Source: Bradyrhizobium sp. BR 10289 (GTDB lineage Bacteria; Pseudomonadota; Alphaproteobacteria; Rhizobiales; Xanthobacteraceae). From it: a stretch of DNA of 64,000 nucleotides. The translations under genes and the position numbers were made by a program. This document shows, in pieces, positions 1-1,879 of this stretch (positions are counted from its first letter, which is position 1; each line of letters opens with the position of its first letter). Below the pieces are notes generated by a model. That model worked only from the letters and a program-made list of their open reading frames with translations, had not been told where the DNA came from and did not search any database. Location of the stretch: assembly GCF_019455385.1 (NCBI RefSeq), contig NZ_JACOFR010000002.1, positions 422,822 to 486,821 on the forward strand. The letters are read 5' to 3'.

Positions 1-904
1 TCGCATTCGAAACATCGCCGCTGGCCTTGCCGGCTGCGTCCAGAACCTGGTCGCCGGTCGCCTCGCCGAAATGATAGTCGATGCCCGTCCCGACCAGATC
101 GGACGTGCCGTCTCGCGCCTTGGTCACCGCGGCAGCGACATCCTTGCCGGCCAGCCCGGTCACGATCGCATTCGAGATATCACCGCCTGCCTTGCCGGCT
201 GCATCCAGAACCTGGTCGCCGGTCGCGTCGCCGAACTGATAGTCGATGGCGGTCTTGGCCAGGTCGGAGACACGGTCGCGGGCTTCGGTCACGGCGGAGG
301 CAAGGTCCTTGCTCCCCAACCCCGTCACGATGGCGTTCGAGACGGCACCACCGATCCTGCCAACCGCATTGAGGACCTGGTCACCCGTGGCATCGCCGAA
401 ATGATAGTCGATGCCCGTTTTGATCAAATCGGATCCGCTGTCCCGAGCGCCTGCGATGGCCTCGGCTGTGTCCTTGCCTGCCAACCCCGTGACAATCGCG
501 TTCGAAACGTCTGCGCCGACCTTTCCGGCAGCGTCGAGCACCTGATCGCTCGTGGCCGCGCCAAAATGATAGTCGATCAGCTTGCCGCCCAGATCCCTGC
601 CGCTGTCCTCCAGCCCGGTGACGGCATGCGCCAGATCCTGGCCGCCCAGTCCGGTCACCACCGTATTCGTGACGCCTTCGATCGCCTTCGTCGCGGATGT
701 CAGGACCTGATCGTCGGTTGCATCCCCGAAATGATGATCGACCAGCGATGAGCCGAAATCGGCCAGCGATGCCCTGGCTTCGCTGGCGGCGGCCAGGGTC
801 TCCGAAACCCTCGTCTCAGCGATCCTTTTCGCCTTGGCTCCGATGCCCTCTATGAAGGCCTCGACGTTCGACTGACCGTCGGAATTGGTTTGCGCGTCGG
901 CCAT
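1..904 (-). CDS. Partial gene for a protein made of 55-residue tandem repeats
   Basis: The frame is open from an ATG at 904 to the left edge of the window, so the 3' end is missing (301 codons seen). A GGAGGG ribosome site lies just upstream of the ATG. After about 55 non-repeat residues (starting MADAQTNSDG) the protein becomes a string of 55-residue units, each opening with a (Y/H)(H/Q)FG(D/E/A)AT motif and containing SNAIVTGL and a charged helix-like stretch. The unit starts lie exactly 165 bases apart (near 736, 571, 406, 241 and 76), giving four full units and one partial. There is no signal peptide or membrane segment. I do not recognise the family; amphipathic helical repeats suggest a structural or binding role, but this is inference. 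Confidence 0.75.
   Translation of the reverse strand, partial: MADAQTNSDGQSNVEAFIEGIGAKAKRIAETRVSETLAAASEARASLADFGSSLVDHHFGDATDDQVLTSATKAIEGVTNTVVTGLGGQDLAHAVTGLEDSGRDLGGKLIDYHFGAATSDQVLDAAGKVGADVSNAIVTGLAGKDTAEAIAGARDSGSDLIKTGIDYHFGDATGDQVLNAVGRIGGAVSNAIVTGLGSKDLASAVTEARDRVSDLAKTAIDYQFGDATGDQVLDAAGKAGGDISNAIVTGLAGKDVAAAVTKARDGTSDLVGTGIDYHFGEATGDQVLDAAGKASGDVSNA
77..736 (-). repeat. Four 165-bp in-frame tandem repeats
   Basis: Four complete 165-bp units inside the left-edge gene: 736-572, 571-407, 406-242 and 241-77, with a fifth partial unit at 76-1. The spacing is invariant, so every unit keeps the reading frame. The units nearest the left edge resemble one another most, as expected for recent duplication at that end. 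Confidence 0.9.
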
Positions 905-1262
905 AAATACCCTCCGCAAAATACGTGAATGCTGAAATGAGCATATATCGACACAATTTTGCCACACTGTCTACTGGTATGGCCGGCTCTCTAAACCAGA
1001 GATGGTCGTGTACGCACGGTGGCAAAGCTAGCCGCGCGCCTTGTTCAAATGCGTTGGCTGCGGGCTTGGACGCTCAGGACCATCGATGCCATCTCTCTCG
1101 CGGCGCGGGTCGGTCGATCAGCATCGACACCGTCTTCGGGCGACGCCGCGGAGCGGCCAGCGCCCCGCTGTGGGTGTTCGATCATCAGGACTGCAACGTC
1201 CTTGACTTCACCCAGCCCCACCTTTAAGTCCCCCCTCGTTCCGCGCGCTTTGAGCGAACCAC
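905..1262. other. 358-bp intergenic region, no gene supported
   Basis: This gap lies between the start of the repeat-protein gene (minus) and tRNA-Asp (plus). It must hold the promoters of both. Short open frames occur on both strands but lack a ribosome site and credible composition. No convincing promoter boxes were identified. Confidence 0.5.
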
Positions 1263-1339
<77 letters not shown>

Positions 1340-1534: not shown

Positions 1535-1879
1535 ATGGCTAAGAAGGACTTGGCGAAGAAGGATTCGGGCAAGAAGGACTCGGCCAAGAAAGCCGCCGCG
1601 CCCGCCACCATCACGCTCAAGCACTTGGCCGCCGACATCGCAGAGAGCCAAGATCTCTCCAAGAAGCACGCCGAGGCCGTGCTGACCGACATGGTCGACC
1701 TGATCACTAAGCACCTGAAGAAGGGCGACCGCGTCCGCATCGTGGGCCTCGGCATCCTCCAGGTCCGTAAGCGCGCAGCCCGCACCGGCCGCAATCCCTC
1801 AACCGGCGAGGCCATCCACATCAAGGCGAGCAAGAAGGTGGCGTTCCGCCCGGTCAAGGAGCTCAAGGAAGCGATCTGA
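1535..1879 (+). CDS. HU-family DNA-binding protein with a lysine-rich N-terminal tail
   Basis: This 114-residue protein is a histone-like nucleoid protein that bends and compacts DNA. The HU fold covers roughly residues 27-114, including the beta-arm region with GRNPSTGEAI. It is preceded by a tail of about 24 residues built from four five-residue units of the type (A/G)KKD(L/S), which HU proteins normally lack at the N terminus. The ATG at 1535 is preferred over the in-frame TTG at 1520 because the GAGGAGG ribosome site overlaps the TTG and sits seven bases before the ATG. The gene stands alone between tRNA-Asp and pepT. The tail probably adds nonspecific DNA affinity, which is inference. 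Confidence 0.92.
   Translation: MAKKDLAKKDSGKKDSAKKAAAPATITLKHLAADIAESQDLSKKHAEAVLTDMVDLITKHLKKGDRVRIVGLGILQVRKRAARTGRNPSTGEAIHIKASKKVAFRPVKELKEAI

Follow-up and report, generated by a model that had tools for sequence, protein, structure and literature searches.

A tandem 55-residue repeat protein encoded beside a GTPase and membrane proteins at a variable site of the Bradyrhizobium sp. BR 10289 chromosome

The repeat array and its continuation across an assembly gap

The window, a stretch of 64,000 nucleotides from Bradyrhizobium sp. BR 10289 (contig NZ_JACOFR010000002.1, positions 422,822 to 486,821), opens inside a gene, here termed A, that starts at an ATG at 904-902 on the minus strand and leaves the window in frame at base 1 (Table 1). 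The window part comprises a 56-aa lead, four 55-aa units and the first 25 aa of a fifth. An earlier, sequence-only reading had described 165-bp units, four full and one partial, with invariant spacing, and our coordinates, strand and unit count agree with it; Tandem Repeats Finder reports, at 1-418, a period of 165 with 2.5 copies, 77% matches, no indels and a score of 472. The 55-residue repeat of gene A is real. The units had also been called exact, which holds for their length and not for their sequence, as the four full window units share 51-73% amino-acid identity and 58-72% DNA identity. The opening motif is present in a looser form than the (Y/H)HFG(D/E)AT first given, reading [YH][HQ]FG[DEA]AT, and SNAIVTGL is replaced by TNTVVTGL in unit 1. 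A hydropathy scan of gene A found neither a hydrophobic signal nor a transmembrane (TM) segment, in line with the signal peptide having been judged absent.

Table 1. Features at the left edge of the window; positions are those of the window
Feature	Position	Strand	Remark
Gene A, 5' part	1..904	-	301 aa of at least 836; runs left past base 1 to a stop at L004 9116
Unit 5, partial	1..76	-	First 25 aa and one base; gap starts at the next base
Unit 4	77..241	-	92% DNA identity to first full unit past the gap
Unit 3	242..406	-	
Unit 2	407..571	-	
Unit 1 (HHFGDAT...)	572..736	-	Most diverged unit of the window
N-terminal lead of gene A, 56 aa	737..904	-	Modelled as two helices, residues 2-31 and 36-56
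Shine-Dalgarno-like box GGAGGG of gene A	910..915	-	
Right-hand part of 6,626-bp insertion (L004 5389-12014, 100 N included)	1..1192		Absent from 8/8 congeneric loci; the rest, with B, C and D, lies left of the window
tRNA-Asp (gtc)	1263..1339	+	Beside the insertion

Locus L004, taken from the window's own genome on a contig of 644,734 bp, extends left of the window. Exactly 100 N adjoin window base 1 on that side (L004 10723-10822), and because of its round length this run is probably scaffold filler that does not give the true size of the gap. The earlier reading had proposed that the array be followed to the left and its units counted, and had held that a frame broken just outside the window would tell against it. 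Past the gap the frame of gene A instead continues in register through three more full units, the last of them diverged, and into a tail. The gap splits unit codon 26, whose first base closes the left side and whose second base opens the right; the missing DNA, provided that the frame is kept, therefore amounts to 165 x k, where k is at least 0. Gene A has a minimum of 8 units and 836 aa, a lower bound given that the gap interrupts the array. Its C-terminal tail of 340 aa, up to the stop, is rich in Asp and Ser; counted over 344 aa it holds 66 Ser and 65 Asp and has a net charge of -72. All seven full units are acidic as well (net charge -2 to -6). This long, acidic tail is probably disordered.

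Unit 4 and the first full unit past the gap, neither of which includes the gap, share 92% DNA identity, and the unit spliced over the gap, with k taken as zero, is 92% identical to unit 4 and 96% identical to that first full unit. The last unit before the acidic tail has 55-66% DNA identity to the others and the first unit 55-65%. Since the gap-side units are 92-96% identical and both ends are diverged, the expansion is internal: to judge from unit identities, the middle of the array is the part that duplicated last, and the assembly breaks there. The recent expansion put forward in the earlier reading did occur, in mid-array rather than at the C-terminal end where it had been placed. Within the unit, there is no more than a hint of a half-unit duplication of about 27 aa (permutation p 0.013).

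Between units, dN/dS is 0.22 in the gene A frame (seven full units; 20 of 21 pairs with usable dS) and 1.21 on the opposite strand (15 of 21 unit pairs usable and free of stops), and the differences at codon positions 1, 2 and 3 number 285, 247 and 597. Gene A therefore encodes a selected protein, under purifying selection. The strand opposite gene A (window 2-751, plus) is open over 249 codons, a mirror of the repeat's codon usage, and on its dN/dS this frame would appear to be non-coding. That open strand, together with the failure to find homologues of gene A, might be taken to mean that A is itself junk, a drifting frame or a DNA satellite open by chance. We find this barely credible, as the low dN/dS is confined to the gene A frame, the frame persists past the gap into a tail whose composition differs, and a GGAGGG box and a tight operon accompany it. 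A promoter scan returned 1 site against 1.6 expected, with none standing out upstream of gene A.

The insertion and the neighbours of gene A

Eight congeneric loci were fetched through the adjoining HU-like gene and compared by BLAST at E 1e-5. L004 5389-12014 has no match of at least 60 bp in any of the eight. The flanking blocks are separated by 38, 38, 92, 104 and 193 bp in five congeners; in the remaining three, other DNA of 0.86, 6.1 and 3.5 kb lies between them. Because the segment is unmatched in all eight congeners and the flanks lie close together in five, genes A to D are, by this comparison, an insertion at a variable chromosomal site beside tRNA-Asp. GC content is 61.6% in the insert and 63.9% and 63.0% in the flanks, and no integrase was recognised among A-D. 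The variable site, bounded by a short conserved ORF (MNHSIHSAD...) and tRNA-Asp, is empty or nearly so in five of the eight congeners and carries other cargo at L020 16302-17162, L023 7755-13829 and L024 2799-6261. The tRNA-Asp block matches opposite to the flank orientation in five of the eight (L020, L022, L023, L024 and L025), and on these alignments the tRNA seems to be inverted at the site. The gene at window 1535-1879 encodes an HU-like DNA-binding protein whose N-terminal tail is made of 5-residue KKDSA-like repeats (15-bp tandem repeat at 1537-1590); in relatives (L018-L021) this tail varies in length, with three to four AKK units or a single one.

Genes A, B (L004 9101-7689), C (7692-6823) and D (6808-5444) follow one another on the minus strand, with 14 bp between A and B, a 4-bp overlap between B and C, and 14 bp between C and D. 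They form a tightly packed four-gene operon with A first, and no homologous operon was found in the searches run.

B carries the GTPase motifs GTRGAGKT, DFPGG and TKAD. Against DO-GTPase2 it scores 18.4 bits (E 0.0019) and against DO-GTPase1 13.6 bits, the cut-off being 27 in both cases, and a PF19993 search of the whole own genome gave no match at E 0.001. The 72,556 plasmid records searched hold one match to B (E 4e-4), in Nonomuraea gerenzanensis (L026, NZ_LT559118.1), a record labelled as a plasmid though 11.85 Mb in size. The two proteins share 23% identity over 332 columns (E 3e-12 as a single comparison), and the Nonomuraea protein is a DO-GTPase2 above the cut-off (44 versus 27 bits). 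Because of this match, B is likely to be distantly akin to DO-GTPase2. At the presumed Walker B place B has DFPGG, which lacks a Glu, and the Nonomuraea protein has DYPGK aligned there despite passing the family cut-off. B was found in 0 of 194 genus genomes, in 0 of 384 genomes of the class and, with a two-row profile (A4), in 0 of 397 of the phylum; phages gave no match, and single-sequence patterns, which reach close relatives only, yielded no confirmed relative in genome_contigs or viral_contigs. In the genus, class and phylum scans for B, as in those for A (194, 264 and 396 genomes), only part of each genome's first-look candidates was scored, and weak relatives may be missed.

C has one TM segment (176-201), no Pfam family to E 1, no match in 59 other genus genomes and none among plasmids. 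D has TM segments at about 38-82 and 126-147, followed by Sel1 above the cut-off (31.4 versus 30.7 bits), and also gives weak TPR-type Pfam matches. Matches to D occur in 33 of 59 other genus genomes, where all rows listed begin at residue 189 or later and thus cover the Sel1 part only, and in 61 plasmid records, where the matches listed cover only the N-terminal TM region. Membrane topology follows from the positive-inside rule, by which the Sel1 part of D is predicted to be periplasmic. A search of the whole own genome for GAP1-N2 (PF20013) gave no match, with a positive control in Corynebacterium glutamicum, and neither C nor D matches GAP1.

Family and predicted fold of the unit

The earlier reading knew of no family with this repeat, and wider searches bear it out: the repeat part of A has no Pfam family above cut-off, NCBIfam and PHROGs gave no convincing match, PADLOC matched nothing and the searches returned no homologue. 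Pfam repeat families (TPR, Sel1, HEAT, PPR and the like) are lacking up to E 10 in the 300-aa N-terminal part and five two-unit windows, and up to E 1 in the C-terminal part. Gene A has no tblastn match among plasmids and phages, and a two-unit alignment (A1) gave 19 pattern matches in genome_contigs and 21 in viral_contigs with none confirmed, these pattern searches being strict, so that distant relatives of A may exist unseen. The protein was found in 0 of 194 other genus genomes and 0 of 396 other order genomes. A profile search among relatives, also proposed earlier, placed the A1 profile in 0 of 264 other genus genomes; a three-unit alignment (A3) shifted register and was left out. By these comparisons the libraries used contain no family with this repeat, while the general kind, a helical-repeat protein in a GTPase operon, is already known. 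Since the repeat occurs in no scanned family and no other searched genome, the protein is either very young or very fast-evolving.

A paper on gene A's repeat was not found in the open-access literature. One paper on a '55 amino acid repeat' concerns, in the part drawn on here, SLH (PMC3297441). SLH repeats share the unit length of about 55 aa, but SLH proteins are secreted, whereas A has no SLH match up to E 10 and no hydrophobic N-terminus.

The mean hydropathy profile of the seven full units peaks in the helix band, with permutation p 0.0005 for the whole unit and 0.002 and 0.0035 for its halves, and the units show amphipathic helical periodicity at 92-98 degrees. AlphaFold2 run on the 301 aa alone gave two helices per unit at pLDDT 57.1 and pTM 0.50. 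The prediction of two units that the earlier reading had asked for, run with three window rows, likewise gave two helices per unit (7-29, 35-57, 63-86 and 90-109) at pLDDT 48.7 and pTM 0.37; in both of these low-confidence runs the helices are about 20-26 aa long. The nearest solved folds are mainly designed helical-repeat proteins, with 7ue2 at E 5.3e-5 in Foldseek (TM-scores of the top matches 0.2-0.4) and 8ga7 at Z 25.9 in VIA-align (rmsd 5.2 over 301); VPS35 and importin-beta match more weakly, at Z about 10-12. Absence from PDB structure lists is no evidence of a new fold. The low-confidence model of A superposes on helical-repeat solenoids of the designed DHR, retromer VPS35 and importin-beta types, but has no sequence relationship to them (identity about 5-15%), and natural helical families are unmatched by HMM. 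Judged by these models, the units are probably alpha-alpha hairpins.

The units are Gly-rich for helices, which counts against a helical reading, but the main counter-hint comes from sub-cut-off Pfam matches of A to alpha/beta families, namely Peripla_BP_6 (E 6.8e-6, summed over repeats) and TrkA_N (E 1.4e-4), on the strength of which the unit may be mixed alpha/beta. TrkA-N scores 22.6 bits in the C-terminal part of A against a cut-off of 23.8, and 18.8 in the N-terminal part; it matches three of five two-unit windows, one of them at 16.4 bits. The GDAT and VTGLAG of the unit resemble TrkA-N. A TrkA-N or Rossmann identity of the unit was rejected, as the scores do not reach the cut-off and are lower without summing over repeats, and it is kept as a caveat only. 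PDB matches of A to bacterial haemoglobin and ChuY-like proteins, at E 0.27 or worse, were also set aside.

Amphipathic periodicity and the TM proteins linked in the operon might also describe a perilipin- or synuclein-type protein that coats lipids or membranes with long amphipathic helices. Proteins of that type are 11-mer amphipathic-helix proteins. In A, hydropathy shows no period of 11 residues (autocorrelation -0.02 at lag 11), and the negative charge of both units and tail is unfavourable for attachment to anionic bacterial membranes, which makes such a coat improbable. Nor do we give much credence to an exported adhesin or type I secretion substrate, in which the repeats would form a surface stalk and the acidic tail an export signal: A lacks a signal or TM segment, secretion genes are absent among B-D and no surface-repeat family is matched in Pfam up to E 10, although a repeat array with an Asp/Ser/Gly-rich C-terminal tail has the outline that such a protein would have.

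Proposed role and relation to known GTPase systems

We tentatively favour, at a probability of about 0.42, a model of an acquired GTPase module linked to the membrane, in which A is the multivalent helical-repeat scaffold or the recognition subunit. From the low-confidence models and the lack of export features we infer a cytosolic protein of tandem helical hairpins, with two amphipathic helices per 55-residue unit, followed by the acidic tail. Genes A-D would have been acquired as one block at the variable chromosomal site. GTPase B would serve as a nucleotide switch, while C, with one TM segment, and D, with several TM segments and predicted periplasmic Sel1 repeats, would anchor the module to membrane and wall. 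The array may present repeated binding sites for B, for A itself or for a client, and binding affinity could shift with unit number, the middle units being recently duplicated.

In the part of Kaur et al. 2020 drawn on here (PMC7159879), a DO-GTPase together with GAP1 defines the GTPase-centric systems, whose partners are FNIII or GASH proteins; TM parts are often present, and so are repeat components that evolve rapidly. The criteria in that part include a conserved Glu in Walker B and a GAP1 downstream of, or fused to, the GTPase. Genes A-D are similar in combining a P-loop GTPase of distant DO-GTPase2 similarity with TM proteins and a repeat protein in one operon in a variable region. They differ in that no GAP1 was found, B falls below the family cut-off and A is neither FNIII nor a recognised GASH, neither being among its Pfam matches. 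Because of these three differences A-D are not filed under DO-GTPase systems, though they may function in a similar way.

A closer kinship would make A-D a DO-GTPase-type module for defence or stress, carried on an island and directed against phage or envelope damage. B would then be a degenerate Double-GTPase, with C standing in for GAP1, A acting as a fast-evolving sensor and D forming the envelope part. The distant DO-GTPase2 kinship of B and the variable chromosomal site are consistent with this, as are, within the parts of the sources used, the pairing of GTPases in published DO-GTPase systems with TM parts and with repeat or helical proteins that vary (PMC7159879) and the report of DO-GTPases beside some psp envelope-stress operons (PMC11237479). 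We nonetheless consider it possible but doubtful, given the lack of GAP1-N2 in the whole own genome and of any GAP1 match in C or D, the score of B under the DO-GTPase2 cut-off with no match in the genome at E 0.001, the empty PADLOC result and the fact that no effector enzyme was recognised.

The Nonomuraea cluster offers the nearest comparison for B. At L026 3680-7888 a DO-GTPase2 gene is flanked by a gene for a dynamin-like GTPase and one for a protein with a C-terminal hydrophobic stretch. The cluster is like A-D in its GTPase, which matches B at the 23% identity given above, and in the hydrophobic stretch of the next protein. It is unlike A-D in that no 55-aa repeat protein is found among its ORFs, it adjoins a dynamin-like protein (Dynamin_N 24.9 bits, just under the cut-off of 27), and C shows no similarity to the protein that follows the GTPase. 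Two upstream proteins of L026 resemble CHAT peptidases by eye.

A bolder form of the scaffold or recognition model would hold A-D to be a hitherto undescribed, self-contained and horizontally acquired GTPase-driven membrane system, where the internally expanding helical array is a tunable recognition element, its avidity or specificity governed by the number of units, and the acidic tail is an arm that binds a client or the switch. In this full form we think the proposal rather unlikely. A travels with a GTPase that seems to be distantly related to a GTPase of predicted bacterial conflict systems, minus the GAP1 thought to be defining. If the module works as proposed, a newly made repeat scaffold would have become the core of a rebuilt GTPase system, and repeat expansion could be followed at a locus where assemblers leave a gap.
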